DNA from: Sphingosinicella humi
GTDB lineage: Bacteria; Pseudomonadota; Alphaproteobacteria; Sphingomonadales; Sphingomonadaceae
Direction: 5' to 3'
Assembly: GCF_003129465.1 (NCBI RefSeq)
Contig: NZ_QFFF01000001.1
Span: forward strand, 310,001 to 374,000
DNA: 64,000 nucleotides
Shown piece by piece: positions 1 to 18,579 of the stretch. Positions within the stretch are counted from its first letter, which is position 1; each line of letters starts with the position of its first letter. The position numbers and the translations under genes are program-made. The notes beneath the pieces are model-generated. The model was not told the origin of the DNA. It worked only from the letters and a program-made list of their open reading frames with translations, and made no database searches.

Positions 1-2223
1 TTCTACGTCCGTGCGGCGCGCAAGCGGGGCGAAGCCATCCCTGCCTTTTTGGCGGTGATAGACCGCGACAAGGCGGCGATCATGCCGACGGAGAAAGCGC
101 TGGCGCTGCTCAATGATAAGAGCATCGTCTGGCCCAGATCGGGGTCCGGCGCGGGCAAAGAACTGGCCGCGCAGGTCGCTCCCTATGTCCAGGCGCATAT
201 CGTCGAATATGAGATCACGCATGATGAGGCCGCCTTCATCAAGGCGGTGAAGGACGCGATCCGCGAACGCCGGATTATACGCACGCCGATCACGCCGGAC
301 AATCTGCGCCAGGTTTTCGATCGCTGGGTGGACATGGTCGGCAGCGAATTGGGCGCGGTCGATCCCGCCGATTACGCGGTGCTGTTCTTCGCCGACATCA
401 TGCACGATGGCGCGCACGAGGCGATGAGCAACCTGCCCGCGCGGCTGCTGATGACGGCCGCCGGTCCGACGTTCCTGCTGGGGGGCAAGACTTACGAGCT
501 GGCTTCCCAGCGCGGATACCGCAACTTCTGGGCGATCTATCACCGTCCGCCGGAAGCCAAACACCGCCACTATTTGCTTGAACGGCGCGACAGCCTGCTC
601 CCCACCGACGAGCAGAAGTTCAAAGGCGCCTATTACACTCCGCTCCACATCGTCGACAAAGCCTATGACGAATTGAAGGCGACGCTGGGGGACAATTGGC
701 AAGACCGCTACATCGTCTGGGACATGTGCGCCGGCGTCGGCAATCTGGAGGCCAAGCACAGCAACCTGCGCAACGTGTTCATGTCTACGCTGGACCAGGC
801 GGACGTGACGATCATGAAGTCCAATCCGGCCTTCGCCGGGGCGGAGATATTCCAGTACGATTACCTCAACGACGACATCACCGATTTCGGAGAGATCGAC
901 TACAGCCTGTCCAACAAGCTGCCGCCCTCGCTGCGCCAAGCGATCGCCGAGGCGAAGGAGGGCAAGAAGGGCGCGAAGCCGATCTTAGTACTGATCAACC
1001 CGCCGTACGCGGAGGCAACCGGGGGTGGATTGGCGGTCCCACTGGCAGTTAGCCAGAACAAGCTTGGAGTCGCCAATACGCTCTTTGCCCGGGCCGGCAT
1101 GGCGGCCTACGGCAAAGCGACCAATGAGCTGTTTATGCAGTTCATCGCGCGGATCGACCGAGAGCTACCGAACTGCAAGCTCGCGATCTTTAGCAAGGTA
1201 AAATATATTAGCACGCCGACACTCAATGAGTTTCGGCAGGTATGGAGAGCCGAGTATCTGGGTGGCTTCGCAGTTCACAGCCGTTCATTTGAGGGCCTCA
1301 AGGGCGACTTTCCTATCGGTTTTCTAATCTGGGATACGAGCAAGGACGTTCCTATCGGTCATGTCACGGCGAACATGCTCGACAAAATGGGCAACCTTGT
1401 CGGCGAGAAGACATTCCTCAACTACGACGGCCTTCGATTGCTGACGGATTGGGTGCCAAGGCCTCCCTCGAACTCGCTCAAGGTTCTCCCGCTGAAGAGC
1501 GCCATTACGCCAGCTACAGCCACCAAGGATTTGCGTGGAGATCGCTGGTCGGATGGAGCCATCGGCTGGCTAAATTGCGCAGGCAATGATCTTCAGAACG
1601 CCACGGCCAAAACCATGCTGTTCTCGTCCGGCTATGGCAGCGCTCGCGGGTACTTCGTCACTCCCGAAAACCTTTGGCAAGCCGCCGTCGTCTTTGCCGT
1701 CCGGCGTCTCATCAAGCCGACGTGGCTCAACGACCGCGACCAATTTCTCCAGCCGTCGCGGCCGCTGAGCGAGGAGTTCAAGTCCGATTGCCTCGTCTGG
1801 ATGCTGTTCAATAACAGCAATCTCACCGCCGGGGCGGACGGACTCCAGTGGAACGGGTGCGACTGGTCGCTGGTGAATCATTTCATCCCTTTCACCGAGG
1901 CTGAGGTAGGGGCGAGCGGGCGCTTCGAGTCGGACTTCATGGTCCGATACATCGCGAACCTCACCTTCACGCCAGAGGCTAAGGCCGTTCTCGCCGAGGG
2001 TCGTGGCCTATTTCGGCGGTTTCACGCGACACAGTTCCCCCGAAGGATCAAGGAGGAGTTGAAGCTCGGCCGCCCCGACGCCGGCTGGTATCAGGTGCGC
2101 CGCGCACTCGAAGCCCACGGCGATACCGAATTGACCAACTTCGAACCGATCAAGATTGCCTACACCGCGTTGTGCGATAAGCTACGACCAATGGTCTTTT
2201 CGCTTGGCTTTTTGCCCGAATAG
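1..2223 (+). CDS. DNA adenine methyltransferase-like protein (type IIG/Eco57I-like), 5' end outside window
   Basis: The reading frame is open from base 1, so the N-terminus lies upstream; a TTG at 49 is unlikely to be the start. A SAM-binding motif I (WDMCAGVGN) lies at about residues 240-248 of the visible part. The catalytic motif IV NPPY is at residues 333-336, the N6-adenine (or N4-cytosine) type. A YYTP segment before motif I is typical of Eco57I-like and type IIG enzymes. The order of motifs, including a long middle region ending in FPIGFLIWD, recalls large R-M fusion proteins of epsilonproteobacteria. No nuclease motif is visible; it could lie in the missing N-terminal part. The neighbour 195 bp downstream on the same strand is a PHP/ATPase gene, suggesting a shared restriction or defence role. 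The methyltransferase fold is well supported; target sequence and nuclease activity are unknown. Confidence 0.8.
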   Translation, partial: FYVRAARKRGEAIPAFLAVIDRDKAAIMPTEKALALLNDKSIVWPRSGSGAGKELAAQVAPYVQAHIVEYEITHDEAAFIKAVKDAIRERRIIRTPITPDNLRQVFDRWVDMVGSELGAVDPADYAVLFFADIMHDGAHEAMSNLPARLLMTAAGPTFLLGGKTYELASQRGYRNFWAIYHRPPEAKHRHYLLERRDSLLPTDEQKFKGAYYTPLHIVDKAYDELKATLGDNWQDRYIVWDMCAGVGNLEAKHSNLRNVFMSTLDQADVTIMKSNPAFAGAEIFQYDYLNDDITDFGEIDYSLSNKLPPSLRQAIAEAKEGKKGAKPILVLINPPYAEATGGGLAVPLAVSQNKLGVANTLFARAGMAAYGKATNELFMQFIARIDRELPNCKLAIFSKVKYISTPTLNEFRQVWRAEYLGGFAVHSRSFEGLKGDFPIGFLIWDTSKDVPIGHVTANMLDKMGNLVGEKTFLNYDGLRLLTDWVPRPPSNSLKVLPLKSAITPATATKDLRGDRWSDGAIGWLNCAGNDLQNATAKTMLFSSGYGSARGYFVTPENLWQAAVVFAVRRLIKPTWLNDRDQFLQPSRPLSEEFKSDCLVWMLFNNSNLTAGADGLQWNGCDWSLVNHFIPFTEAEVGASGRFESDFMVRYIANLTFTPEAKAVLAEGRGLFRRFHATQFPRRIKEELKLGRPDAGWYQVRRALEAHGDTELTNFEPIKIAYTALCDKLRPMVFSLGFLPE

Positions 2224-2418
2224 CGCCGTCGAACATTGATCTCCTCGATCACGTTTGGCTGACGTTCCTAGCGGTGCCCGGGCGAGCTTGCCCAAGGTGC
2301 CTAGGTTATATGGTGGCCCCACGATCGAACAGTCCCGCTCACTTCACCTGCCGGTGGCATCTTGTATCCATCATTATCCGGCGTCAAAAATCGCCATGCT
2401 TGGACTTAAGGGGGCGAA

Positions 2419-5319
2419 ATGAGTGATCGGGGATCGGAGTGGCGACGCTGGGACCTGCACGTCCACACGCCCGAAAGCGCGCTCGCCAACCACTATGCAG
2501 ACTGGCCTAGCTATCTGGACGCGCTCGAGGCGAAGGGCAAAGGCATCTCGGTGCTTGGCGTCACCGACTACTGCAGCATCGAAGGTTACAAGAAGGTCGT
2601 CGCCGCCAGAGCCGAAGGAAGGTTGTCGAGCTTCGACCTCGTCATTCCCAACATAGAATTCCGCACCCATCCCGAAACAGGGAAGGGAAAGGCCATCAAC
2701 CTGCACATCCTGGTGGACCCGGACGCGCCGGACGCGACTGCCGAGATCGAACAGGCTCTCGGTCTTCTCACCTTTCGGTACAACGACATCGACTATCCCT
2801 GCTCGACTGAGGGCCTCCGCCGGCTCGGCCGCGCCGTCGACGGTAGCCAAACTGATCCTTGGGGCGCCTTCAAGGCGGGCGTGAATGCCTTCAAGCCCGA
2901 CTTCGCGGAGATCCGGCGCTGGCTCGACAATCAAGGCCGCTGGATACGTCGCAATGGGATCGTCGTCGTCGCGAACGGGAAGGACGGTCCCTCCGGCCTA
3001 TCCAAGGACGCCGGGTTCGCGGCGGTAAGGGAGGAGCTATACCGCTGCGCAGACATGGTCTTCTCGGGCAATCCTGCAGACCGGCTCTACTTCCTCGGTC
3101 ACGGGTCGGACGATCCGGACGAGGTGAAGGAGAAGAACGGATCGCTGAAGCCTTGCATCCACGGCTCCGACGCGCATGACGAGGACAAGCTTTTTCAGCC
3201 GGACGACGACCGGTACTGTTGGATCAAGGCCAAGCCAACGTTTGAGGGTCTGCGGCAGCTGCTTCACGAGCCGGAACACCGCGTCGCAATTGGACCTACG
3301 CCGCCAGCGCCAACCGACTCCAGCAAGATCATCGATCATGTGGCGCTCGCCGGCGCCCCCGAATGGTTCGCGGACGAGATCATCCATCTTAATTCTGGGC
3401 TGGTGACGATTATCGGCGAAAAAGGTGCAGGAAAGACCGCGCTCGCCGAGTTGATCGCGTTCACGACCGCAGCCTGGAAGAGTGAGGGCTCGCCGGCATC
3501 CTTCATCAGCAAGGCCTCGCCCACCATCGACGATCTGACGGTGGCGGTCACCTGGGCGGACGGGACCGTGACGAGCCGCCGCGTAGGAGACGGTCGGGCC
3601 GCCGACCTCGCTAGGGTGCGCTACCTATCGCAGGACTTCGTCGAGGAGCTGTGCTCGACCGACGTTTCCGGAAGCCGCCTTATTCGCGAAATCGAAGACG
3701 TCGTGTTCGGCTACATCGAAGAGGGCGACCGCCTTGATTCGTCTGACTTCGCAGGCTTGCGTCGACTGCGGACCGATCACGTCACGCAGAAGAAGCGCGA
3801 GGTAACCGCGCGAGTCTCGACCCTCAATCGTGAGATTCTCGCGATCGAAGAGCGGCTGACCGGCCGTTCCGAGAAGGAGATGCTGCTGCAGCGCATCAAG
3901 GACGACCTGACCGCCATCGACGCCCAGCTCCCCGCCCTGCAGGTGAGCGTCGACCCGGCCGTGGCCGCTGAGATCGAGCGGCTGACGGCGATCCGCAAGG
4001 ACAAGGGCTCACAGTTGGCCAGCGCAAACCGGCGGCTTGCTAGGCTTGCGACCGCGAGGGCTAAAGCGGTCGACTTCATCGCCGCAACCGAGCGGGCCTT
4101 CCTGGACATTCGGCCGGCGCTGATCGAGGTCGGCTTCACCGAGGCGGAAGCCGACCGGTTACGGCCGGTGATCCAGGCGGATGGGCTCAATCCGTTCGGG
4201 CCGATAGAGGCTCGGACGCGGCAAGACGTCGCCTCGCTTTCGGGGCTGCCCGAAAATCCTGATCCCGCTGGCGAAACCGTTGCCGACTTGGACCACAGAC
4301 TGGAGAAGCTAAACGGCAAGCTCGCGACCGACGAGCAGCAGAGGAAGCGCCTGATCGAGTTACAGAAACAACGTGCACGGATGGAGGGCGATCAGCGCCG
4401 CCTCGAAACCGAGATCGCCAATCTCGATGGTCCGGTGAAGGATGACATGGCCGCAAAGATCGAAGAGCGCTGGACGACCTACCTCTCCTATTTCAATCTT
4501 CTCGATGAGGAGCGCGCCGAGTTGGCGAAGCTGTATGCGCCGTTGGAGAAGGTGATCCCCGCAGACGGCGACGGCGCCGAGGCTGGCTTTGAGCTTCAGG
4601 TGAGACTCAGCGCGGCTCCGGCCGAGTGGATCGAGGTCGGTCGGGACATGTTCGACAAGCGCAGGAACGGTGTGGCGCTCGCGAACGATGAGATCCTGCG
4701 TGACGTCCGACGCACGTTGTTCGAAGCTTGGCGGTCTGCCGACAGGCAGGCAATCAGGACGTCCCTCGACTGGCTAATCACTCAGATGGGGAAGCCATCG
4801 GCGATCAGCGACCAGCTGCTAGGTCATGCGACCCTCGAGCGTGTCTACGACTGGCTGTTTTCCACCGACCACATCACGCTCGACTATGGTTTGAAGTATC
4901 GCGGCACGGATCTGGAGCGGCTCTCGCCCGGCACGCGCGGGATCGTCCTGCTGGTCCTTTATTTGGCGATGGACCGACAAGACCGCCGCCCCCTCATCAT
5001 CGACCAGCCAGAGGGCAACCTCGACAACTCGTCCATCTACGAGGCGCTCGTGCCTTTCCTCCGCAAGGCGAAGCTCACGCGGCAGGTGATCCTCGTCTCG
5101 CATAATCCGAACTTGGTCGTCACCACGGACGCCGATCAGGTTCTGGTCGCTCGCGCCGAACGGCCGGAGGGCGCCCGCCACCCCAAGATCTCGTATTCGG
5201 CAGGTGCGCTTGAGGATGTCGGAACGGAGGAGGCAATCCGAGCACAGACAGTCAAGCTGCTGGAAGGTGGTCGAGACCCCTTCAAGACACGTGAGAAGCG
5301 CTACGCTCTGCCGGCTTGA
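2419..5319 (+). CDS. TrlF-type PHP-domain SMC-like ATPase, putative defence protein
   Basis: This 966-residue protein begins with a PHP phosphoesterase domain: DLHVHT at residues 12-17, a VTDY segment near 55, and HGSDAH near 249-254 as later metal ligands. An ABC/SMC-like ATPase follows. Its Walker A (GEKGAGKT) is at about 333-340, then a long charged coiled coil spans about 445-680, and Walker B (LIIDQPEGNLDN) lies near 860-871 with an SHNPN switch near 894. This matches what is annotated as the TrlF family AAA-like ATPase. PHP domains hydrolyse phosphoesters, often on nucleic acid, and the SMC-like part probably senses DNA or RNA, as in the RecF/OLD/RecN class of defence ATPases. It is the second cargo gene after the methyltransferase-like gene, with its own 195-bp leader, so co-transcription is possible but not shown. 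The domain call is firm; the biological role is inferred. Confidence 0.8.
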   Translation: MSDRGSEWRRWDLHVHTPESALANHYADWPSYLDALEAKGKGISVLGVTDYCSIEGYKKVVAARAEGRLSSFDLVIPNIEFRTHPETGKGKAINLHILVDPDAPDATAEIEQALGLLTFRYNDIDYPCSTEGLRRLGRAVDGSQTDPWGAFKAGVNAFKPDFAEIRRWLDNQGRWIRRNGIVVVANGKDGPSGLSKDAGFAAVREELYRCADMVFSGNPADRLYFLGHGSDDPDEVKEKNGSLKPCIHGSDAHDEDKLFQPDDDRYCWIKAKPTFEGLRQLLHEPEHRVAIGPTPPAPTDSSKIIDHVALAGAPEWFADEIIHLNSGLVTIIGEKGAGKTALAELIAFTTAAWKSEGSPASFISKASPTIDDLTVAVTWADGTVTSRRVGDGRAADLARVRYLSQDFVEELCSTDVSGSRLIREIEDVVFGYIEEGDRLDSSDFAGLRRLRTDHVTQKKREVTARVSTLNREILAIEERLTGRSEKEMLLQRIKDDLTAIDAQLPALQVSVDPAVAAEIERLTAIRKDKGSQLASANRRLARLATARAKAVDFIAATERAFLDIRPALIEVGFTEAEADRLRPVIQADGLNPFGPIEARTRQDVASLSGLPENPDPAGETVADLDHRLEKLNGKLATDEQQRKRLIELQKQRARMEGDQRRLETEIANLDGPVKDDMAAKIEERWTTYLSYFNLLDEERAELAKLYAPLEKVIPADGDGAEAGFELQVRLSAAPAEWIEVGRDMFDKRRNGVALANDEILRDVRRTLFEAWRSADRQAIRTSLDWLITQMGKPSAISDQLLGHATLERVYDWLFSTDHITLDYGLKYRGTDLERLSPGTRGIVLLVLYLAMDRQDRRPLIIDQPEGNLDNSSIYEALVPFLRKAKLTRQVILVSHNPNLVVTTDADQVLVARAERPEGARHPKISYSAGALEDVGTEEAIRAQTVKLLEGGRDPFKTREKRYALPA

Positions 5320-5537
5320 ACGTCGCCGAATGTTGCGGCAGCACTGGCTTAACGCGGCCAAGCTCCATCAAGTCGGCACTATTCCGAAGTCATCGTTGTG
5401 CAGCCGACGAACATGAAGCGGACTGTCAGCATCTGGGAAGCGGCGCCGGCCCGTTAAAGGCCACAATGGGTGTATAGCGGAAATATCGGGCCTCAGTCGG
5501 GACGGCGGCTGCGAGCCACGGCTGAGCCTTTCGAGTC

Positions 5538-5936
5538 TCAGCTGAGCTGGCTTTCGAGATACTGTCGGACCAGGGAGAGGTCGCCCACGTCTCCGGATGT
5601 CATGCGATCCAGAGCGCTGCGACCGCCGAACAGTGGTGCCGTATTCGGAGCGCGGATCCAAGCGTCCGCCCTCTTCTGCTCCGGCAGCAGGGTGTTTATG
5701 GCTTTGAAGATCCCGAGCAGGTACGAGATGCGTTTGACGGTATCGTGATTCACCTCCGAGACCTGACCAGCCTTCCATCTCTGCAGTGTTGATCGGGACG
5801 TAAGTCCGAGCAGCTTCATCTGCTCCTTCTCGGTCAGGCGCCAGACTGTGACGAGTTGGAAGAACGCAAGCAGCGCAGGCGCACCGAGCTGTGCTTTGCT
5901 ATCGTTGAGATCCCAGCCTGAGCCACTTTGTTCCAT
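5538..5936 (-). CDS. MbcA/ParS/Xre-type antitoxin-like protein (DUF2384), orphan
   Basis: The C-terminal part follows the RES-Xre antitoxin family closely. An N-terminal helical Xre-like segment (LTEKEQMKLLGL then STLQRWK) leads to YLLGIFKAINTLLP and the toxin-binding end PLFGGRSALDRM. The start at 5936 gives 132 residues, typical of the family, and has an AAAGG-like ribosome site about eight bases upstream. An upstream ATG at 6104 would add 56 residues that do not look like the family. Such antitoxins neutralise RES-domain NAD+-degrading toxins and repress their own operon, and the toxin normally follows directly. Here the 218 bases downstream (5320-5537) contain no RES-like frame, so the gene is an orphan, perhaps a relic or a stand-alone regulator within the island. 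The family call is firm; the function in this setting is uncertain. Confidence 0.75.
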   Translation of the reverse strand: MEQSGSGWDLNDSKAQLGAPALLAFFQLVTVWRLTEKEQMKLLGLTSRSTLQRWKAGQVSEVNHDTVKRISYLLGIFKAINTLLPEQKRADAWIRAPNTAPLFGGRSALDRMTSGDVGDLSLVRQYLESQLS

Positions 5937-6260
5937 CAAACTCGCCTTTCTGCAAGCATGGCCATCGGCTACCTCAAGTCCCAGAGCGTGTGACTCTTCC
6001 GACGCCATGCGAGTGGCAGAACGCACGCCGTGCTCGAGTATCTCAAGGAAACGGCGACGGTCGCCATCGCTGATTGCCTGTAGAATGTTCCGCGAGCGAT
6101 CCATGGCGCAGATTACCCTTTGAAAGGCATCATTTGAAGCTTTCTATCGCCGGAAGCAGAAACTCACCTTTCACCTCAACTTACACTCAGCGAAACAGGC
6201 GACGTGCAAAGTGAGACGGCCGACGCAACGGCCACGTGCCCTTAGGATTGCTTGCTCGGG

Positions 6261-6953
6261 TCAGAGCATCCGCCGCAGAACGTCCGCAAATCCCGCCGGT
6301 GCGACGAGCCAATTTGTCGTCTCATCATAGATCGATCCGTCGGGGTCGATCCGCCACCCTCTTGCTTCGAGCCAGTCGGAGGACAGAAATGTATCGACGG
6401 CGCGCCGATCCACGATGCTTACGGAACCGATTTGTGTCTTCGAAACTTGATCTTCCTTGAGCGCGATCGACGCCGGCCCCGCGTCTCGAGCTCCCTGCTC
6501 GGAGGTGTCGATTGAGAGGCGCCTGAAGGCCAGGCGAAGCATGTCGTTTTCAGATTTGAGCCTTCGTGCCTCCTCGCGCTCCATTTTGAATAACGTCCGC
6601 ACACCGAGGTCCGTTATTTCGTCGATGAGCCTATCTATCTGATTTCCTTGTGGAGCAGCCGACTTGGATTGCGTTTTTCCGCGTTCACCAGCGAATGCGT
6701 CGATTAGCTCACGGTAAACGGCACCATTTTTATTTCTAATCGATTGTTCTTGCACACCTCCCAAATCCTGCGAGCGTTTGCCGACTGCAGAGATGCTAAA
6801 GTCGGTAACTCCCTCGTCACGTAGCTGGCTCAGCGCTTTCCACAACGTCTCTAAATTACTCCTCCTCGATCCCTTCGAGCCCTCTAGTAAGCGGGCAAAG
6901 CACTTCTCTGCATCAGTAGGCGGAAAGCTGGCGACGGAGGGCTTAGGAGGCAT
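6261..6953 (-). CDS. gmtX: GmtX-like gamma-mobile-trio protein
   Basis: The start at 6953 (MPPKPSVAS) leaves one base after the stop of the helicase gene upstream in the same operon, which argues for translational coupling. A longer frame to 7088 would run deep into that gene. The 230-residue product has an N-terminal helical region with the pattern DFSISAVGKRSQDLGG followed by QSIRNKNGAVYRELI. I recognise this as the hallmark segment of GmtX, where a 'sequence reading' helix pair resembles a small DNA-binding domain. A coiled stretch near 115-150 and a C-terminal domain ending NWLVAPAGFADVLRRML follow. In gamma-mobile-trio elements GmtX is the third, non-catalytic partner of the recombinases GmtY and GmtZ; its biochemical job is not known to me. 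The assignment rests on remembered family sequence, supported by its place at the end of the module. Confidence 0.7.
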   Translation of the reverse strand: MPPKPSVASFPPTDAEKCFARLLEGSKGSRRSNLETLWKALSQLRDEGVTDFSISAVGKRSQDLGGVQEQSIRNKNGAVYRELIDAFAGERGKTQSKSAAPQGNQIDRLIDEITDLGVRTLFKMEREEARRLKSENDMLRLAFRRLSIDTSEQGARDAGPASIALKEDQVSKTQIGSVSIVDRRAVDTFLSSDWLEARGWRIDPDGSIYDETTNWLVAPAGFADVLRRML

Positions 6954-6954
6954 G

Positions 6955-8955
6955 TTACTTGTCCATCGATGATGTGCGGAATAGGTCGTGAGCAAACGCC
7001 GTAACCCGCCCCCTGAACGCCGGTGGCCTACGTAGGGCGTCCGCCAACGCCTCAGGGGGGCCGACAAGGACGGCCTGCTTCTCCGCACGTGTGATAGCTG
7101 TATACAGCCAGGTCGGATCCAAGAGCGTGGATGGCTCCACCACGATCACGACGCGCGCTGCCTGGCTACCTTGAAGCTTATGGCAGGTGAGCGCGTATGC
7201 CAGCGCTAGCCGGACAGTGGCCTTAGCGTCGAACGAAACCAGCCGTTCCTCGAACCGAACGGTCAATCCACGGCGTTCTACGTCGGCCTCTACAACATGA
7301 CCTAGCATGCCGTTGAACAGCGCCTTCTGATAATCGTTCTCCAGGTGAACCACCGGGTCACCGACGCAGAACCAAGATCCCAAGTGCCCCTTCACTTCTG
7401 GCTTTCCCGCCTTGTGGCGGTCATGGAAGTGGCTGTTGAGGCGGTCTACGGTCCTGTTCAGGGCAGCGATGACCAGGAGGTCATGACGGTCGGAGGTGAA
7501 CCCCCCGAGGTCAGCCACAACCCGAACAACTTCCCGATCAATGTCTGGTAGGCCACACCCGATGTGTGACACTCCGTCTGCCGCGCCAGAGTACCTCTTC
7601 AGTGCTGGCTCAATTCGCTTTCGGATCGCCAGCGAGACCTCAGGAATGCCGCTTTCCCCGGTTTGTCGATGGATCGTCTCGAGCTGCGCTACTCGAGATT
7701 TTTCCTGCGCGAGCGTGTGAAAGATGGTGCCCGGGCCAATTGGCGGCAGCTGCGCCACATCGCCCGTTATCAGTAGGCGAGCACCTGACGCTTCCACGCG
7801 GTCCGTGATGTGCATCCATTGACCGACGTCCACCATGCTGGCTTCGTCAATGACGAGCAGCGTCGTCGCGTCTAGCAGTGACAATCCCTCCGGCGCGGCT
7901 TTCCCTTCCTCAATCCGCTCGTCGCGTTCATCCAGTTCTCGCAGTAGTCGGTGAATGGTTCTTGCAAGCCGCGACGTGGCCTGCCCGAGCCTGAGTGCTG
8001 CCTTTCCGGACAATGTAGCCAGGAGAACTCGCCCGCCCAACTCCGCCCAAGTGTTCGCTATCGCACGAATGGTGGAGGTTTTGCCCGTTCCAGCCCCTCC
8101 GCACATGATAGAGAAGCGGCGGCTTAATGTGGCTATTACGGCCTGCCGCTGCTCTTGGTGGAGCGAGTGCGGCATCGTTCTTTCAACATGAGCCAAGGCA
8201 CGATCAATCGCTGATCCGAGGATCGCGCCTTCTGTTGACCAACGAGAGATGCGTACTGCGATCTTCCCCTCCATCCAGGCAAAGCCAGGAGAGCGAAACA
8301 GCTCACCGCACATGATAAGCCGGCGTCTGTGGACCGCAAATCGAACCGCGCGCTCCACCAACTCAGACTGCGGGTGGACACATAGGAGGCCTGCGAGGCC
8401 CTTCCTAAGCTCAATGCCACCGACAGCAGTGTGCCCGCGCTGCGTGCAATTTGACATGAAGCGATCGACACAACCTTGCAGCCGCTCGGGTGATGCTCGC
8501 GCTTCAGCAAGTGGCATTCTAGTTGTGAGTACCTGCAACCCGAGCTTGTCGACCTTCAGCCAAGGCACGGTTCTGGCGAGGACATATGGATTGTCGGCCA
8601 GGATCTCGATGGCGTTCGGGCCGCAGATACCAACGATTTTTCGCGCAAGACCTACCTCATGTATCCCGTGCCCTTCGAGCCATTCGTGAGCAGCATACCC
8701 GGCTGCCTCACGCGGCCAGCGTGCGTGCATGGCGTAGCCAATCCGCGTGGCAACTACGCCACGCGTCTCGTCTAAGGCGGGTATAAGCTCCTGAAGTACG
8801 AGCTCTTCGCTGGCGAGTATCTCCGGCAGCCCCGTCCCGAAGCGATCCAGCAGTTTCTCAGCCCTTACGGGTCCAATACCGGGGAAAGATTCTAGGAAAG
8901 TCGCGCGCAATCGGCGGCCGTCGAGTTTGCCGTAGTCGAATGTGAGGCGGCTCAT
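6955..8955 (-). CDS. RecD2-like superfamily 1B helicase of the island module
   Basis: This is a 666-residue SF1 helicase. Near residues 25-40 there is a helix-hairpin-helix (GIGPVRAEKLLDRFG), then a RecD2-type N-terminal region. The motor carries Walker A (GGAGTGKTST) near 285, Walker B (VIDEASM) near 370, motif III (ITGDVAQLPP) near 397, a UvrD_C_2-like segment (ALTCHKLQGSQ) near 590 and motif VI (YTAITRAEKQ) near 620. All ATPase motifs look intact. RecD2 proteins unwind DNA 5'-3' without RecBC. The length is slightly below typical RecD2 (about 720-750). It starts 4 bases inside the upstream coiled-coil gene and ends one base before gmtX, so it belongs to the recombination operon. It may act in excision, replication or strand processing of the element. 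A chromosomal repair role is less likely given the location. Confidence 0.85.
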   Translation of the reverse strand: MSRLTFDYGKLDGRRLRATFLESFPGIGPVRAEKLLDRFGTGLPEILASEELVLQELIPALDETRGVVATRIGYAMHARWPREAAGYAAHEWLEGHGIHEVGLARKIVGICGPNAIEILADNPYVLARTVPWLKVDKLGLQVLTTRMPLAEARASPERLQGCVDRFMSNCTQRGHTAVGGIELRKGLAGLLCVHPQSELVERAVRFAVHRRRLIMCGELFRSPGFAWMEGKIAVRISRWSTEGAILGSAIDRALAHVERTMPHSLHQEQRQAVIATLSRRFSIMCGGAGTGKTSTIRAIANTWAELGGRVLLATLSGKAALRLGQATSRLARTIHRLLRELDERDERIEEGKAAPEGLSLLDATTLLVIDEASMVDVGQWMHITDRVEASGARLLITGDVAQLPPIGPGTIFHTLAQEKSRVAQLETIHRQTGESGIPEVSLAIRKRIEPALKRYSGAADGVSHIGCGLPDIDREVVRVVADLGGFTSDRHDLLVIAALNRTVDRLNSHFHDRHKAGKPEVKGHLGSWFCVGDPVVHLENDYQKALFNGMLGHVVEADVERRGLTVRFEERLVSFDAKATVRLALAYALTCHKLQGSQAARVVIVVEPSTLLDPTWLYTAITRAEKQAVLVGPPEALADALRRPPAFRGRVTAFAHDLFRTSSMDK

Positions 8956-9446
8956 TCGATGACTTCGTCGATCACGGGAGCGGGAAGATCGCCGGACGAG
9001 TAGATTTCGCGGAGAGCCGATCTGTAGCGATCCCGCTCAACGACGACCTTCTCGAGTTTTGCCGTGAGGAACTCAATTTGGCGCTGGGCCTCTGTCAGAT
9101 CGGATTGAGCTCTCCGCGCGTCACCGCCAAGGCGTTTGACTTTCTGCCTTACAACGTCGTCTACCTGATCCAGCTGGGTTCTGCTGCCAATCGGTTTTAC
9201 GCCTTGGCTCTCTGCGAACGAATTTACAAGATCGCGGATTTCGGGCTTCGTATGGAACCACTTCTGATCAGCGGGCTTAAGTTTCAACTCTCGGACAATC
9301 GCGACGACGTTCACCTTGCCGTCAGGTGTCAACGGGAGCGTCGGCCGTAGTTCGGTCGGCGGCTGCGCCGCATATTCCTTTTCGATGCCTTCCAGCCACG
9401 GCTCCAGCACCTCAAGTATGGCGGGCACCACCGCGCGTCTCGTCAC
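8952..9446 (-). CDS. Small coiled-coil protein of the recombinase operon (unknown)
   Basis: The 164-residue product has an N-terminal globular half (residues 1-85), including PEIRDLVNSFAESQGVKPIG, and a C-terminal coiled coil from about 95 to 150 rich in A, E, K, Q and R. It overlaps the upstream gmtZ-like gene by 4 bases and the downstream helicase gene by 4 bases, so it is translated with the recombination machinery. The plan of a short DNA-associated coiled-coil protein beside two large tyrosine recombinases recalls TnpC of Tn554-type transposons, which influences orientation and frequency of transposition. This is an analogy of layout only; I see no clear sequence match. It could alternatively be a directionality or loading factor for the adjacent helicase. 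Confidence 0.6.
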   Translation of the reverse strand: MTRRAVVPAILEVLEPWLEGIEKEYAAQPPTELRPTLPLTPDGKVNVVAIVRELKLKPADQKWFHTKPEIRDLVNSFAESQGVKPIGSRTQLDQVDDVVRQKVKRLGGDARRAQSDLTEAQRQIEFLTAKLEKVVVERDRYRSALREIYSSGDLPAPVIDEVIE

Positions 9447-12400
9447 TCCGCAGCCTCCGTAGCTGTCTGCTCGATGAGGAGATTCTGTCCGCGCCTCGAC
9501 AGCCGGGTGCCGGTAAGCCCCTCCAGCTTAGCCCGAAATGCTGTTTGCTCCTCATAACCTAATGATTGGAGCAATCGTTCGCCAGCCATGAGGGCGTTTG
9601 TCTCATCCCGACCAAATTGTGTGTACATGAATTTTGCCAATTCGTTGGCGATCCTTAGTCCATCTTCCTCAGAGATATGAAGGAAGAGCGCCTCGAGGCC
9701 AGCCCGGGCCAGGAAGGCGTCGAACATCCTCAGTCGCTTCAAATTGGGAACGCTTGCGTCGATCGATTGGTAGAAAACGGCTGCCTGGCATACGTTATCG
9801 ATCAGCTCGAATTCCCGTTCTCCTCGGTCATCCAGCTCCACGACAAACTCTAAATCTTCTGCGCTGCCCAGAGTGATTAGTGAGACGTTTCTCTCCGCAC
9901 CGCCGCCGTCACTTCCACGCAGGAGCTGTTGGCACTGCATAATCAGGTTGTAGGTGGCGTGCCATGTGAGCGCCCAATCATCAGCCTCGTTCGTGCGCTG
10001 GTCGAGGACCGCCGAAGCAGTATCCCATTGTTTTACCTTGTCGAAAATAGAGCCAGTTTGGGCTGCCTGAACACGGAGGTGGTCCAATTGCTCAAACTCA
10101 CGCTGAGCTTCTTTGTAGCGGCGGGAGGCCTCGCGGAACCTGAAGCCCACTTCGTTGAACCGCGCGTGCAATCCAATCAGGAAGGCAGGGCCAGACATGA
10201 AAAACCGGCACCGCACGCAATTCTTGCTGCCTGGGCCCGGCACCGGCCCGTGGACGGTGTAGCCGTCCGCCCGACGGTGGAGGAGTGGGCCTCCTTCGTG
10301 ACACCGCATGCAACCGACTGGGCAAATGCCGTAGTCAATGCGGACCCAGGACGCCCGTGCACCCTTCGCTGCAGCATCAACCGCATCGACATCGTTATAG
10401 GCGATTGCCGATTTCAACTCATCGTATGCCTTGGATTTTAGATGTGCCTCCCAGCCCTCCTGTTGCCTAGCTTGCATCTCAGCGGAGGCAGAGTTCAGAA
10501 CACGCGAGATATGGCCGATTGAATGCTTCTGATAATAGGCCGTCATGATTGCGGTGCAGTGGCCCGCCACCTTCATCAGAATGGCCAGATCGACACCCTT
10601 CTCCGCCATGGCGGTAATCCACGTGACGCGAAGGGAGTGCAGGTCGTAGGCGACTGCAGAAGGAGCACCATCAGCTCTGCGCGAGAGGATCAGTTTGTCC
10701 TCGATGCCCATGTCGCGCAGTCGACGCTCGAGCTCGGTGAGCAGCTTGATCCAATAGCTCCGAAGCCGGCCGTCGGTCACCGGCTGATCCCGATGTTCGG
10801 AGCATGGGTCGCGGAAGAGGAAAGTTTCCGCCCCACGTGCAGCGAGAGCTTCTGCCGTGTGGCGGATCATGAGCTCCCTCGCGGCGAGGTCTTGCCATTG
10901 TGTTTGGTGAGAGACTGGGTTGTATTTTTCCTGCCACTGCCTGAGTTCATCGAGCAGTCTGACGACAGGCTCATGATTCCAAGGTATTTCGTAGCCCCGC
11001 TCCTGATCTCTCCGGCCCACGTCCGCCGTCTTATTTGTGTTGATATATAGACATAGGTCATCACCACGGCGACGAATGACCCCCTTTGGGGGATCCGCTT
11101 CGCCGGCTAACTCATGGGAGTTCTCTTCCCACTTTCCGGTAGCGATGTTGAAGCGCGAACGATCTGCCTCGCCAGAGTTCAACATCCTCACTTGGAATGT
11201 ACGAAGCGGCGTCTCTAGCTTGAGCAATATGGCTGAATTACGGACTGGCGACCAAACTTCCACATAGCAGCCGAGTTGCTCATCAAACCAATTGAGCCAG
11301 TCGCCGCCCTTCCAACCGAGTTTAGATCTTCCGATTACCTTAGGCGTAGCTGCATCATCTGCCGTCAGGATTTCCTTCAGCAGGGTGACATATTTTGTAG
11401 GCATCGCCTCGCGATATGTTTCCGGTAGGTTCTGGCGCCTTTCGCCGGAAATGATAATCGGATTACGAAAGCCGGGCAGAATATACGGGTGACCGTCCTC
11501 GCCTTCTTCCACGCAACGAGTGACGATTAGCCATTCCAGAAACGAGTGAGCGTTGCGGGTATTCCGCTCAACTTCCGCTCTGAAGGGCTTGATATCTGAA
11601 CGCGCCCACGTGGTGCCCCTCAAGTATTCGATCGGCTCTCTCGGCAGACGCGAGTCGTCGAGGAGATGCTCCAGAAAAACCGTGAGAGCGCTGAGTGCTC
11701 CATTTCGGCTCCGCTGCCGCTGCGCGAACCACTCTTCAGATGCGGACCGCCACGCCTCCATTTCCGGTTCGCGCTTGACGACCCATTCGAATCTGACGTC
11801 CTGCTTTTTCGAGACGGGCCTTACCCAGCCAACGTAGTCGGTCACGGTCGACGTGACCGCCGTTTGGCCATACGCGCGAGTCATGGCCGCGATTATGAGC
11901 CGTGGAAGACTCCGGTGCGTGTTGGTATTAATTTTTCGGCCTTCAAGGCAGAGTCGATAAACCTCCGGGGTGAGGTCACCGACCTCCTGCACTCCTTGTG
12001 TCGAAATCAGGACGTCTATCAGCCCGCGATACCGGTTAAGCGGACTCTTGTTCGTTCCACTTGCCTTGTCGTCATGCGCTTTGAAGTCATCAAGGATCGC
12101 CTTGATGTGCGGCATGCACCGACCCGAGCTGATCCAGGCTAAGCTACCTAGTCGAACGACGCCGACGATCGCGCTTGGATCCCGAGGCCAGACTATCAAG
12201 CCCTCTCTCCACAGCTCGAGGAGGTACTCACTCAGCCTCCCCTTGTCCGCTCCTACCTTGGCCCGACGAAAGGAGAGAGCGATGTCGTCAAGGACGGTTG
12301 CAAATTCTTCCCGCGTCTCGGCGGCACGCGCTCTCGCAACTAGGGCGCGGCCGGTGGCAGACATCGAGTAGCCCGGCCGATCCACAAACCTTTGGTAGTC

Positions 12401-12514
12401 GTCCCAGGCCTCGAACGCTCTACGAACAACTGACGGATCGAATGACTTACTGAGCCAGAACTGATTGAGGCTCGGGTTGACCCCGATTAGGTTGCCAGTC
12501 TGCTCAACCCGCAA
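9443..12514 (-). CDS. gmtZ: GmtZ/VPA1269-like large tyrosine recombinase
   Basis: This 1023-residue protein has a tyrosine-recombinase catalytic core near residues 620-660. DLHSLRVTW supplies the H..R pair, AGHCT the second histidine region and TAYYQKH the nucleophilic tyrosine. A cysteine-rich element (CPVGCMRCHEGG, then NCVRCRFF) lies near 730-760 and probably binds zinc. A long helical C-terminal part follows. This architecture fits the VPA1269/GmtZ family of the gamma-mobile-trio. The start chosen is TTG at 12514; there is no ATG before codon 50. The frame is the same as that of the upstream gmtY-like gene, separated from it by a single TAG and 16 sense codons, and no ribosome-binding site is obvious. 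The protein is expected to act with GmtY in integration or excision of the island. Confidence 0.75.
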   Translation of the reverse strand: MRVEQTGNLIGVNPSLNQFWLSKSFDPSVVRRAFEAWDDYQRFVDRPGYSMSATGRALVARARAAETREEFATVLDDIALSFRRAKVGADKGRLSEYLLELWREGLIVWPRDPSAIVGVVRLGSLAWISSGRCMPHIKAILDDFKAHDDKASGTNKSPLNRYRGLIDVLISTQGVQEVGDLTPEVYRLCLEGRKINTNTHRSLPRLIIAAMTRAYGQTAVTSTVTDYVGWVRPVSKKQDVRFEWVVKREPEMEAWRSASEEWFAQRQRSRNGALSALTVFLEHLLDDSRLPREPIEYLRGTTWARSDIKPFRAEVERNTRNAHSFLEWLIVTRCVEEGEDGHPYILPGFRNPIIISGERRQNLPETYREAMPTKYVTLLKEILTADDAATPKVIGRSKLGWKGGDWLNWFDEQLGCYVEVWSPVRNSAILLKLETPLRTFQVRMLNSGEADRSRFNIATGKWEENSHELAGEADPPKGVIRRRGDDLCLYINTNKTADVGRRDQERGYEIPWNHEPVVRLLDELRQWQEKYNPVSHQTQWQDLAARELMIRHTAEALAARGAETFLFRDPCSEHRDQPVTDGRLRSYWIKLLTELERRLRDMGIEDKLILSRRADGAPSAVAYDLHSLRVTWITAMAEKGVDLAILMKVAGHCTAIMTAYYQKHSIGHISRVLNSASAEMQARQQEGWEAHLKSKAYDELKSAIAYNDVDAVDAAAKGARASWVRIDYGICPVGCMRCHEGGPLLHRRADGYTVHGPVPGPGSKNCVRCRFFMSGPAFLIGLHARFNEVGFRFREASRRYKEAQREFEQLDHLRVQAAQTGSIFDKVKQWDTASAVLDQRTNEADDWALTWHATYNLIMQCQQLLRGSDGGGAERNVSLITLGSAEDLEFVVELDDRGEREFELIDNVCQAAVFYQSIDASVPNLKRLRMFDAFLARAGLEALFLHISEEDGLRIANELAKFMYTQFGRDETNALMAGERLLQSLGYEEQTAFRAKLEGLTGTRLSRRGQNLLIEQTATEAAE

Positions 12515-12562
12515 CGGTACTAGTTCTGCGTCATGAAAAGAGCGCTGATTGATCGCCGCCCC

Positions 12563-13951
12563 CTAAGGTATCGAAGCTACAGGAATTGCCGCGCCAACCT
12601 CGGCAAGGCGACGTTGCACGAGATGGGCCTCTCGGTCATTGTAGACCTCCTGCGACAGTATCGAAGTCTGCCCCATGCCCACTTGGAAAATCTTCTTGTC
12701 AATCAGACCAGCGTCGACGAGATCCTGCATCCGCTGACCGTAGCCGTGACGAAGCCCATGCGGCGTGGTGCCGTCGGCTTCGCGGCTTCGAAGACCAATT
12801 CTCCGGCAGGCGGCAGCCATGCTACGACGAATGGCCTCTGGGTTCATCGGCTCACCCTCTTTGGTGACGAACAACCACGGGTGGTTAACATTGGCTGGAC
12901 GAACGTATCGTACATACAGCCGGTAAAGTTGAAGGAATAGCCTTCCGTACTCCGCAGGAAGCCAAAGCAGAGGCCTGAACTTCCCGTGCCTCTTTAGTAG
13001 CATTCCCTTCCATCCACTTTTATCATCCCAATGGAGTGGACTCCTGTCATACATCACCTTCAGGAATGTTGCTCGATTAGTCGAAATGTACTTCCCAGTC
13101 CTTGGATCGATCCATTCTATTTCACCTTCAGAGGGGTGATACATTCTAACGTGAGACATCGTCTTATCAAATGGGTCCTCATAGACGTCGCCGACGAACA
13201 TATGACACGCTTCCGAGACGCGGACGCTAGCGCCGTACATCAGGATACATATCATCTGATCACGGATATTATATTTCACCCAAGGTATAGTAGACTTCGA
13301 CTTTCCTGGATTGATGAAGCCGGACCCTATGAGGTCTCCAAATCGCTCGTGTGGAAAAAATTTTGGCCGGCCCGCGACAGCTGGAGCTCTTGATGGAAGG
13401 GCAAACCGCCGAGCCACGGACGCATTTGCCTCCGCCACGGCGCGATCCTTGGTATGTGCAAGCAGAGCTGCGGAGCGCATCTTGTTCCAGCTACGCCAGA
13501 ACGCGATGCGCTCTGCATGTGAAGCCTGGCGATATGGGTTCAGCGGCCTCGTCTTGTACTTGTCGACGAGCCAGTCCGAGAATTCGCATGCCGCCACGGT
13601 GAGACTCTCAACGGTGTCAGAGCTGCAGGGCAGCCAGTATAGCCCGTGCGGGTCTTCTTCTCCCGCGCCCAAGGTGCCTCGGTGCAGAGCATGTGAGAAG
13701 CTCGTGAAAAGCTGATGGCGGTTCCTTTCCTCTGCGAAATCAGCAGCTCGGGCAGCCATGAACTCGATGAGACGAACGATGGCTTGAGCGTACGCCCTTT
13801 CCCTGCTGAGGCTGAGGCTACGCTCCGCGAGATATTCCCCGAAGGGTTGAAATATTTCGCCATTGATGAGGACGACCGCAGTAAGGCGGTTCTCGCGCGC
13901 CCTATCCCGTGCGATAACGTATGTCGCTACTCGTCCACGAACTGAGCGCAC
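12563..13951 (-). CDS. gmtY: GmtY-like tyrosine recombinase/integrase
   Basis: This 462-residue site-specific recombinase starts with GTG at 13951. Catalytic residues are visible: R in GASVRVSEA near residue 241, HGLRHGYG near 398 giving H and R, and the tyrosine in SQEVYND near 437. The N-terminal 180 residues form a SAM-like core-binding domain. It is the first gene of the minus-strand operon and begins only about 140 bases from the junction with the chromosomal rarA fragment, the usual place for an integrase near an att site. In gamma-mobile-trio islands GmtY is the recombinase partner of GmtZ and GmtX. The tyrosine-recombinase call is firm; naming it GmtY depends on the neighbours. Confidence 0.8.
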   Translation of the reverse strand: MRSVRGRVATYVIARDRARENRLTAVVLINGEIFQPFGEYLAERSLSLSRERAYAQAIVRLIEFMAARAADFAEERNRHQLFTSFSHALHRGTLGAGEEDPHGLYWLPCSSDTVESLTVAACEFSDWLVDKYKTRPLNPYRQASHAERIAFWRSWNKMRSAALLAHTKDRAVAEANASVARRFALPSRAPAVAGRPKFFPHERFGDLIGSGFINPGKSKSTIPWVKYNIRDQMICILMYGASVRVSEACHMFVGDVYEDPFDKTMSHVRMYHPSEGEIEWIDPRTGKYISTNRATFLKVMYDRSPLHWDDKSGWKGMLLKRHGKFRPLLWLPAEYGRLFLQLYRLYVRYVRPANVNHPWLFVTKEGEPMNPEAIRRSMAAACRRIGLRSREADGTTPHGLRHGYGQRMQDLVDAGLIDKKIFQVGMGQTSILSQEVYNDREAHLVQRRLAEVGAAIPVASIP

Positions 13952-14089
13952 CAGGCTTCCTTATCTTGGGTATAAACCTTGAGGGTTATTTCTCACTGCG
14001 TCAAGGCACCAGAAGGACTGCGAAATAGGGTTCCTTCGGGCCTCGAGACGGTTTTGCGCCGTCAAGTGAGTAGACCGGGTGGGGGTGAT
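13952..14089. other. Island-chromosome junction, presumed att region
   Basis: This non-coding stretch lies between the integrase start codon and the first rarA-like codons. It must contain the integrase promoter and the right attachment site. An ACCTTGAGGGTT near 13976 and a spaced inverted pair CTCACT (about 13992) and AGTGAG (about 14065), each close to a GTCAAG element, are possible recombinase-binding arms. The rarA-like frame runs open upstream to 13979 but the protein similarity starts at about 14090. The exact crossover point cannot be set without the left end. Confidence 0.45.
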
Positions 14090-14677
14090 TTCGACAAGGA
14101 CCGGGAGGGCCATTACAACCTCATCTCCGCCCTCCACAAAGCGATACGCGGCTCGGACCCGCAGGCGGCGCTCTACTATCTCGCGCGCATGCTGGTCGCC
14201 GGCGAGGAGCCGCTCTACGTCCTGCGCCGCCTGACCCGCGCCGCCACCGAGGATATCGGCCTCGCCGATCCCCAGGCCCTGGTCCAGTGCCTCGCGGCCA
14301 AGGACGCCTATGATTTCCTCGGCTCTCCGGAGGGCGAGCTCGCCATCGTCCAGGCCTGCCTCTATCTCGCGACCGCGCCCAAATCGAACGCGGTCTACAT
14401 GGCTCAGAAAGGAGCCTGGCGGACGGCGAAGGACACGGGCTCGCTGAAGCCGCCCAAGAACATCTTGAACGCGCCGACCAAGCTCATGAAGCAGGTCGGC
14501 TACGGCAGGGGGTACCAATATGATCACGACGCTCCGGAGGGCTTTTCCGGCGACAATTACTGGCCCGAGGAAATGGAGCCGCAGACCTTCTACGCCCCCG
14601 TCGACCGCGGCTTCGAAAAGCGCATCGCCGAACGCATCGCCTGGTGGGAGGAGCGTCGCGCTGAAATGCGCAAGTAA
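14090..14677 (+). pseudogene. rarA: rarA (mgsA) C-terminal fragment, disrupted by the island
   Basis: The translation from FDKDREGHYNL to the stop matches the C-terminal part of replication-associated recombination protein A: the ALHKAIRGSDPQAALYYLARML helices, the EDIGLADP segment, and the end YAPVDRGFEKRIAERIAWW typical of alphaproteobacterial RarA. The N-terminal AAA+ domain with Walker A and B, over 200 residues, is missing. RarA is a tetrameric, MgsA/WRNIP1-type ATPase acting at stalled forks. The sequence just upstream belongs to the mobile island, so the gene was cut by the insertion. The N-terminal part may lie beyond the far end of the island. A TTG at 13979 could theoretically start a 232-residue chimaeric product, but without the ATPase domain it would not be a working RarA. 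Confidence 0.85.
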
Positions 14678-17518: not shown

Positions 17519-18367
17519 ATGACCCACATTCAACGCTTCGCCGCCATCGACTGGTCGGGCGCCAAGGGGCGTCGGCACAAGGGCATTGCCGTTGCCGTCT
17601 GCGAGGACGGTGACGCCGCGCCGCGGCTAATCGAGCGGAATAGTCCCTGGTCGCGGACGCACGTGCTGGAATGGCTGATGGAAACGGCGGAGGAAGCCCC
17701 GACCCTCTACGGCTTCGATTTCAGCTACGCCCCGCCGATCATTGAGCGCGGCGCCTATCTGCCGGGCGACACGGCGCCGGAGGAAGCCAAGGCTTTCTGG
17801 GCCTATGTCGACAGCCTTTGCGAGGACGAGGATCTCGGCGCCGCCAGCTTCCTCGAGCAGCATCATCGACGCCATTTCTATTTCGGCGCCGCCGACGGAG
17901 TGAAGGCCGACTTCCTCCACCACCGCGTCTGCGAACACGCCTTCAACGCGGGCGGCGGCGGCAAGGCCTCAACCCTCTACGACGCCATCGGAGCCGCGCA
18001 GGTGGCCAAGGCCAGCTTCGCCGGCATGCGCCTCCTCCACCGCCTGGAAGGACGAGTCCCGATCTGGCCCATGGACCCCTTCCCCGCCTCGGGCAGTCTC
18101 GTCGTCGAAATCTACACCCGCGTCTTCATCCGCCTCGCCGGGCTCAGCGGCCGCAAGGTCCGCAGCCTTGATGCGCTGAACCAGGCGCTGACCGCCCTCG
18201 GCAGCCGCCCTGCGGCGCTGGCCCATGACCCCAACGACCATGAAACCGATGTGTTGATCGCCGCCGCCGGCCTTCGCCGTATCGCCGGCGATGCCGCCTA
18301 CTGGAACCCGCCTGCCCTCACCCCCAATATAGCGCGAACCGAGGGCTGGACCTTCGGCGTCTTGTAA
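17519..18367 (+). CDS. Hypothetical protein with RNase H-like (DUF429-type) character
   Basis: The 282-residue soluble protein opens with RFAAIDWSGAKG, an acidic strand-turn like the first catalytic strand of RNase H-fold proteins. A second acidic position lies in YGFDFSYAPP near residue 66, and NDHETDVLIAAAGL near 240 resembles the DExDAxxAA end of DUF429 proteins. No catalytic role has been established for this type as far as I know. It is probably expressed alone: the REP-like palindrome lies immediately upstream and a tRNA gene immediately downstream. Confidence 0.6.
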   Translation: MTHIQRFAAIDWSGAKGRRHKGIAVAVCEDGDAAPRLIERNSPWSRTHVLEWLMETAEEAPTLYGFDFSYAPPIIERGAYLPGDTAPEEAKAFWAYVDSLCEDEDLGAASFLEQHHRRHFYFGAADGVKADFLHHRVCEHAFNAGGGGKASTLYDAIGAAQVAKASFAGMRLLHRLEGRVPIWPMDPFPASGSLVVEIYTRVFIRLAGLSGRKVRSLDALNQALTALGSRPAALAHDPNDHETDVLIAAAGLRRIAGDAAYWNPPALTPNIARTEGWTFGVL

Positions 18368-18383
18368 AGCATGGAAAGGCCAA

Positions 18384-18459
18384 GCCGCGTTAGCTCAGCT
18401 GGTAGAGCAACCGCCTTGTAAGCGGTAGGTCGTCCGTTCGAGTCGGACACGCGGCACCA
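18384..18459 (+). tRNA. tRNA-Thr (anticodon TGT)
   Basis: A full cloverleaf can be drawn. The acceptor GCCGCGT (18384-18390) pairs with ACGCGGC (18449-18455), the D arm is GCTC/GAGC, and the anticodon stem ACCGC/GCGGT holds loop CTTGTAA with anticodon TGT at 18417-18419. The T arm is GTCCG/CGGAC with TTCGAGT. The discriminator is A, and CCA is encoded (18457-18459). It reads ACA and, by wobble, other threonine codons. Confidence 0.97.
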
Positions 18460-18524
18460 TCCTCGATCCCTCCGGCAGCACACTCAGCTGAGGCCGGCCA
18501 TCGTTCTACCGATTGGCGCCAGGA

Positions 18525-18575
18525 GAATTTTCTTCTATTTCCTTTGATTCTAGGGTGCGGGCTAGAAGAATTTTC
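18525..18575. promoter_or_regulatory. Paired GAATTTTC elements, candidate Lrp-type operator
   Basis: GAATTTTC occurs at 18525-18532 and again at 18568-18575. The first is flanked right by TTCT and the second left by AGAA, so both are halves of one palindromic consensus AGAAGAATTTTCTTCT. They are 43 bp apart, about four helical turns, and the second ends just before the Lrp-type start codon. AT-rich palindromes repeated in phase are typical of Lrp/AsnC autoregulation. This is inferred from pattern only. Confidence 0.5.
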
Positions 18576-18579
18576 CAAT

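Follow-up and report, generated by a model that had tools for sequence, protein, structure and literature searches.

Gamma-Mobile-Trio (GMT) islands are described as mobile armouries in Vibrio (PMC12039261). Here we analyse an island of this family in Sphingosinicella humi, part of which lies in a 64,000-nucleotide stretch of the chromosome, called the window below. This island interrupts the conserved gene rarA and carries a complete rarA of its own. A comparable arrangement is known from Vibrio cholerae, where an island with a diverged recA inserts in both orientations by experiment (PMC4405046), and a similar recA island occurs in V. parahaemolyticus (PMC4334540). Like the island in the window, these elements are about 30 kb long and lie inside a DNA-repair gene (at recA bp 494 or 491), with a complete recA, 23-24% diverged, near one end and short repeats or overlaps at the joins (PMC4405046, PMC4334540). 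They differ in their target, recA, and the recombinase genes listed for them, those of a phage integrase and a XerS-like enzyme, do not bear GMT names; the comparison is by description.

Two further types of element were compared in the same way. Tn6283 inactivates bcp, and its authors suggest that the cargo partly compensates for the loss (PMC5991714). The SE elements to which it belongs (Tn6283/SE-6283) have paired tyrosine recombinases, as GMT islands do (PMC5991714, PMC10214605), but are built on an intA-tfp-intB-srap set and are described as limited to Gammaproteobacteria (PMC10214605). GInt elements share the recombinase operon at one end, the variable cargo and the short imperfect repeats; 6-7 nt staggered cuts were inferred for them and a circular form was detected. 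They differ in having ginABCD with three integrases and in inserting mostly between genes or at gene ends, without complete inactivation, and the parts of that paper seen contain no replacement gene (PMC5385486). Gene replacement is already known in principle for other or unclassified elements, since it is published for recA and suggested for bcp. A literature search turned up no account of gene replacement by GMT islands or of rarA as a target; the founding GMT paper (Mahata et al. 2024, doi 10.1038/s41564-024-01840-5) lay outside that search, so unpublished status is unproven. We regard the island in the window as a true GMT of a novel variant, with a gene-replacement plan that recurs in the family.

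A GMT island within rarA

The window is C1:310001-374000 in a 3.03-Mb genome of four contigs, and window base x is C1 position 310000+x. Its GmtX, GmtY and GmtZ all pass the curated NCBIfam cut-offs (Table 1), and its cargo includes a candidate defence gene, possibly a further likeness to the GMT armouries. Judged by these protein sequences, the island is a GMT, as a preliminary description made from the window alone had proposed. The five genes of its operon, in the order gmtY-gmtZ-coiled coil (CC)-recD2-like-gmtX, are all open and stand on the minus strand where that description had placed them. Unrelated tyrosine-recombinase elements of the GInt, SE, RIT or Tn554 type also combine two or three recombinases with a small protein (PMC5385486, PMC10214605), and the recombinases here could in principle have come from one of these. 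Such an origin seems extremely improbable, given three GMT models above their curated cut-offs.

The whole island occupies C1:295194-324091 (28,898 bp) and thus reaches 14,806 bp to the left of window base 1. The earlier limits, 1-14089, therefore needed correction at both ends: the right end is window base 14091, and position 1 was simply the edge of the window. The left end, which had been left to be found in the full contig, was located there 14.8 kb outside the window, with its join at C1:295187-295193. The same 7 bp, CGACAAG, stand once at each join and are a candidate crossover core; at a specified position, an identity of this length would arise by chance about 6 times in 100,000. The left join (attL) reads GTCTA-CGACAAG-AGTAACCCCC and the right join (attR) GGTGATTT-CGACAAG-GACCGG, and the empty site in uninterrupted relatives is GTCTACGACAAGGACCGG or a close variant of it. 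An imperfect motif is common to both island ends when these are read inwards (AGTAACCCCC and AAATCACCCCC). The G+C content of the island is 59.4%, against 66.3% and 66.0% in the 10-kb flanks. A tRNA-Thr (tgt) gene lies at 18384-18459, 4.3 kb to the right of the island, and is not its landing site.

The gene interrupted is the host rarA, which is split between the codons for ..VAVYDK and DREGHYN... An open reading frame (ORF) at 13979-14677 ends in the RarA C-terminal domain MgsA_C, and the matching N-terminal part lies 29 kb leftwards. The island carries a full rarA 1.4 kb inside its left end, with the recombinase operon at the opposite end. The encoded protein is complete, with AAA, AAA_assoc_2 and MgsA_C domains. 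A genome-wide search with it returned the protein itself at 100% identity, the two host pieces at 65% (residues 11-242) and 48% (residues 222-428), and two weak partial matches to other ATPases. It is the only full-length rarA match in the genome. The insertion in rarA, the carried copy and the recurrence of this plan had all been missed earlier, since the window does not contain the left half of the island.

In all 25 related genomes that were compared (15 of the same genus, 10 of the same order), rarA is not split by such an island. It gives one continuous match in 24 of them and, in the remaining one (G135), two pieces inside a single 501-amino-acid open frame. The defined ends, the 7-bp repeat and the uninterrupted rarA of relatives mark the island as a discrete insertion whose empty site is preserved in relatives. 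They argue for a mobile insert and speak against the fixed chromosomal locus that the preliminary description had named as a possible refutation. The island RarA is 56-62% identical to RarA of the 24 relatives with a continuous match, and its best match among plasmid records is from Azospirillum (61.7%). The host RarA piece finds its best plasmid-record match, at 75.7% identity, in a Sphingomonas parapaucimobilis plasmid, where a homologue of the window gene at 17519-18367 is likewise found shortly downstream of rarA; the identity points to a sphingomonad-like host, as had been surmised. The island thus has a target-gene-replacing design, in which a conserved gene is split and a full, diverged copy of it is carried.

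From these sequence comparisons we conclude, with a probability of about 80%, that the GMT island entered the chromosome by site-specific recombination inside rarA and brought a complete, diverged rarA with it. The pair of catalytic tyrosine recombinases, together with the short core and the clean joins, suggests site-specific recombination of a circular form, as for GInts (PMC5385486). GmtY and GmtZ would cut and join attB and the attI of the circular form, the crossover spanning about 7 bp. GmtX and CC would serve as accessory proteins that bind DNA, and the RecD2-like helicase would help in DNA processing. Expression of the carried rarA would make the insertion tolerable and so allow a conserved gene to serve as a landing site. 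Dependence would be a by-product: if the island were lost imprecisely, no working rarA would remain.

Table 1. Features of the island and of the interrupted gene. Positions are those of the window unless preceded by C1.
Feature	Position	Strand	Evidence or remark
gmtY, tyrosine recombinase	12563..13951	-	NF040693 366 bits, cut-off 340
gmtZ, large tyrosine recombinase, long form, 1023 aa	9443..12514	-	NF047926 710 bits, cut-off 600
CC, small protein with predicted C-terminal coiled coil	8952..9446	-	no family; Acidiphilium homologue in same place
RecD2-like SF1B helicase	6955..8955	-	TIGR01448 315 bits (below cut-off 500); HHH_RecD2, AAA_30, UvrD_C_2
gmtX	6261..6953	-	NF040692 125 bits, cut-off 40; start = ATG at 6953; open frame from 7088
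In-window part of GMT island	1..14091	.	
CGACAAG, candidate crossover core	14092..14098	+	present at each join
N-terminal piece of host rarA	C1:294444-295193		left of window; missing half of split gene
C-terminal piece of interrupted host rarA (MgsA_C domain)	14092..14677	+	Pfam PF12002 210 bits; placed in RarA by comparison
Island's own rarA	C1:296574-297881	+	435 aa; left of window
Xre/MbcA/ParS antitoxin-like cargo protein	5538..6104	-	PF20432 and PF09722, both over cut-off
TrlF-family AAA-like ATPase, candidate defence gene	2419..5319	+	NF045780 562 bits, cut-off 350
3' part of large cargo ORF (starts C1:309740)	1..2223	+	NPPY motif by eye

Interrupted and carried genes in other GMT loci

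When species genomes were scanned with a GmtZ alignment, 142 relatives came up, and the best 80 were kept; with four plasmid loci these made a set of 84, in which GmtZ was found in 84, GmtY in 81, GmtX in 81 and all three in 78. Pairs of similar ORFs were sought within each locus and 10 kb on each side, 36 loci were extended by up to about 60 kb, and carried copies were searched against all loci and 30 of their genomes. Seven further islands sit in a gene that they also carry whole: rarA in two, srkA in three, gdhA in one and a TMEM175-family gene in one. In L071, a Burkholderiales metagenome-assembled genome (MAG), rarA is split at GATT|ENPSF into pieces at 4749-5441 and 17865-18761, and the full copy (13168-14577) follows directly after gmtX. 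L096, from Alcaligenaceae, likewise has a full rarA after gmtX; its N and C pieces are on other contigs, and the N piece ends at the same residue as that of L071. A serine/threonine protein kinase gene matching NF008738, which we take to be of the srkA/yihE type, is split within HGDCH in a Rhodocyclaceae MAG (L082) and a Pseudomonadota MAG (L063), each with both pieces and a full copy. The gene is split at the same codon in Herminiimonas (L080), where pieces and copy are spread over two contigs. The piece adjoining gmtY is the N piece in L080 and the C piece in L063 and L082, so insertion at this codon has occurred in both orientations. In Noviherbaspirillum (L093) gdhA is split after DIPA (N piece C23:16029-16490, C piece C23:94355-95185), with a full copy directly after gmtX. 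In Duganella (L123) a TMEM175-family gene without its first residues lies beside gmtY and a full copy follows gmtX; the other piece was not seen in the stretch searched.

Other similar-ORF pairs were left uncounted, in L043, L048, L049, L052, L054, L056, L068, L069, L070, L072, L073, L074, L081, L086, L109, L110, L113, L116, L120 and L122, along with some further pairs in L063 and L123. One of these may be a further case: in Camelimonas (L110:3301-3801) a 166-amino-acid ORF near gmtY has an 83% similar stretch of 64 amino acids about 29 kb on. Separately, an extra RarA at L256 (G793:C66:95183-96484), 68% identical to the copy in the L071 island and accompanied by a normal rarA elsewhere in the genome, perhaps marks another such island.

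In a tree of GmtY and GmtZ from 81 loci and the window, the window groups with L042, L048 and L049 (support 0.999) at a distance of about 2 substitutions per site. Gene-replacing islands appear at five places in this tree: the window; L071 and L096; L063, L080 and L082 (with L090); L093; and L123. From the separate places it follows that rarA probably became a target on two occasions; the codons differ, and so does the direction of the operon relative to the gene. The second rarA of the window might instead be chance cargo with no link to the target. At the target DNA the carried copy shows much the same divergence as over the rest of its length, and L090, in the branch of L063, L080 and L082, carries srkA while its native srkA elsewhere in the genome is intact, for which reason it was not counted. 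However, L090 rather shows that the copy travels with the element, and the carried gene is the target gene in eight islands from five branches, which makes coincidence very unlikely.

A general rule was considered by which the carried copy would be recoded where its own element lands, and it did not hold in protein or DNA comparisons. In 11-residue windows of the protein, the rarA copies of L071 and L096 show their strongest deviation at their own site (ranks 2 and 8 of 426 there, and 1 within four residues), but the two are close relatives. For the window rarA copy the rank is 156 of 426 when 51 mixed orthologues are the reference; with 24 orthologues from the order of the host it is 24, 51 and 63 of 431 for windows of 9, 11 and 15 residues. 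The gdhA copy ranks 44 of 427, and the four srkA copies, at 203 to 252 of 327, give no sign of recoding. At the DNA level the carried copy stands out at the target in none of five cases. The general divergence of the carried copy, about 35-41% of bases in these alignments, may suffice against self-targeting. A second rule, that landing sites are the most conserved motifs of their genes, was not general either: the conservation ranks were 7 of 426 for rarA site B, 57 of 327 for srkA, 108 of 427 for gdhA and 301 of 426 for rarA site A (152 of 431 within the order).

On balance we favour a strategy of self-rescue, in which each branch homes into one conserved gene (rarA at two codons, srkA, gdhA) and brings a copy diverged enough to escape targeting, so that the host stays healthy and becomes dependent on the island. 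Within such a strategy the TMEM175-family gene is probably also a target, and by analogy recA could be the target of the Acidiphilium element described below.

Several observations weigh against the reading proposed for the window. Most of the 84 loci show no split gene with a copy in the 10 kb searched on each side or, for 36 loci, in the roughly 60 kb further. Some islands lie just after an intact glmS (L057:6369-8470 and L099:6447-8461, both checked, and L060, grouped with them by similarity) and need no carried copy since that gene is whole. In this glmS-linked branch, from Acinetobacter and Pseudoalteromonas, the GMT starts about 180-200 bp beyond the glmS end, in the region where Tn7 is known to land. 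The remaining point concerns GmtY: at two positions, each occupied by His in 79 of 81 relatives, it has Gly427-Gln428. Without these residues GmtY may be impaired or may use another residue, and the copy of the island in the window may therefore be inactive. A real GMT island could on this account have lost its mobility with part of the GmtY active site and persist as the holder of the only complete rarA, and the left half of the island, with large stretches of only short or unassigned ORFs, would fit such decay. Against this, GmtY retains the catalytic R244, H398, R401 and Y437, and GmtZ all the residues checked (R438, H626, R629, H652 and Y660/Y661); the five operon genes are open and the joins are clean. 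We hold an immobile island to be a tentative possibility. The earlier statement that the R..H..R..Y residues of both recombinases are intact holds; it is at the two additional positions that GmtY departs from its relatives.

The CC-RecD2 pair

In 76 of the 84 other loci gmtY, gmtZ and gmtX are consecutive with gaps below 300 bp; in the remaining eight one gene was undetected or gmtZ is split. The island in the window departs from this uninterrupted order in having two genes between gmtZ and gmtX. No RecD2-like gene stands in that place in any of the 81 other loci with gmtX, and the five-gene order accordingly occurs in none. Elsewhere a RecD2-like gene lies upstream of gmtY in six loci and downstream of gmtX in 12, and it was not found in 66 of 84 in the stretch searched. 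Two loci of a RecD2-bearing branch, L118 and L124, showed none. In 17 of the 18 loci with recD2 a CC-like gene precedes it, and the contig of the eighteenth starts inside recD2.

Within the window the start of CC overlaps the stop of gmtZ and the start of recD2 overlaps the stop of CC. The most likely start of gmtX is the ATG at 6953, which follows the recD2 stop by one base, so that the ORF listed from 7088 is probably too long. Profile searches of Pfam and NCBIfam gave no meaningful family match for CC. Homology of CC to the CC proteins beside recD2 in other loci was not significant (hmmsearch E 0.015 against two sequences, hhalign E 0.19), although the segment aligned by hhalign is colinear; a relationship of CC to GmtX was not significant either. 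Clear homologues of CC were found only in Acidiphilium (45% identity over 78 amino acids, E 2e-20) and in another alphaproteobacterium, G649.

The same five-gene order in alphaproteobacteria, which the preliminary description had proposed to look for as a check, was found once, on an Acidiphilium multivorum plasmid (L344:2592-11821), where a full recA follows directly after gmtX. The annotation there reads recombinase, VPA1269 family, hypothetical, RecD-like, gmtX and recA. All five proteins match those of the window, with identities of 26-45% and E values from 2e-17 to 1e-74; GmtY (295 bits) and GmtZ (429 bits) are below their cut-offs and GmtX (75 bits) is above. In G649 (L349:6410-14623) Y-like, Z-like, an unmatched 250-amino-acid gene, CC and RecD stand in a row, with scores below the GMT cut-offs. 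In a helicase tree the window and Acidiphilium proteins fall together (0.935), apart from the other GMT helicases, with plasmid helicases between the two groups.

CC and the helicase may have landed in the operon by chance, as passengers with no part in movement. Their varying place and the lack of a RecD2-like gene in the stretch searched at most of the other loci suit this idea, as do the lack of significant similarity between the window CC and the others and the separation of the RecD2-like proteins into two groups. The overlapping starts and stops, by contrast, tie the five genes together, the order recurs with homologous CC and RecD2 in Acidiphilium and in similar form in G649, and a CC-like gene precedes recD2 almost wherever recD2 occurs. 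We consider the passenger explanation possible but doubtful. Instead we incline, with some reserve, to the view that the GMTs of alphaproteobacteria are an old branch of five genes in which the CC-RecD2 pair is built in, held jointly with the repeated self-rescue strategy set out above.

Distribution, cargo and significance

In surveys with one genome per species, GmtY exceeded its cut-off in one of 396 genomes of the order, and GmtZ and GmtX each in one of 385 of the class; in every case this was the genome of the window. Further alphaproteobacterial GMTs were found by the genome scan in Microvirga splendida and Camelimonas fluminis, and the Acidiphilium plasmid came from another collection. 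NCBI annotation already names gmtY and gmtX in Betaproteobacteria, and 148 plasmid records contain a GmtZ relative. The host lies outside Gammaproteobacteria, in contrast to the islands for which the family was named; GMTs beyond that class are not new, and the earlier suggestion of a widened host range is not supported as a novelty. Phages and viral contigs yielded no GmtZ relative, and a search of PHROGs gave general integrase matches only. In another genome of the same genus (G173, L350:6940-19001), Y-like and Z-like genes, a 277-amino-acid gene and further large genes of restriction-modification appearance form a second type of recombinase element.

The likely defence cargo of the preliminary description remains plausible for the TrlF-family ATPase, to judge by its NF045780 score; this protein also has a weaker, partial match to Ppl in PADLOC. 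No complete defence system was found in the island by PADLOC, in which matches were partial. The large ORF ending at 2223 has no match in Pfam or PADLOC, and its best library match is TIGR02987 at an E value of only 0.015; with its NPPY motif it is perhaps an adenine methyltransferase. This methyltransferase-like ORF and the ATPase after it (1-5319) are a possible two-gene defence unit. Beside the antitoxin-like gene at 5538-6104 no toxin partner was recognised in general profile searches, and the first 61 residues of its product show a weak AAA_assoc_2 match (E 0.0027).

The usual targets of integrases are tRNA genes, the ends of genes or the gaps between them, where insertion does no harm. 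Landing in the middle of a conserved gene and paying with a spare copy makes well-conserved sites usable and the element hard to lose. The recurring CC-RecD2 pair provides candidate fourth and fifth parts of the machinery in part of the family. The presence of the plan in several GMT branches yields a testable rule, that the interrupted gene is the carried gene, which can be applied to finding island ends and predicting landing sites. The islands also move diverged housekeeping genes (rarA, srkA, gdhA and perhaps recA) between bacteria and can thereby mislead trees built from such genes. A plan of gene replacement that recurs in this way deserves a systematic survey.

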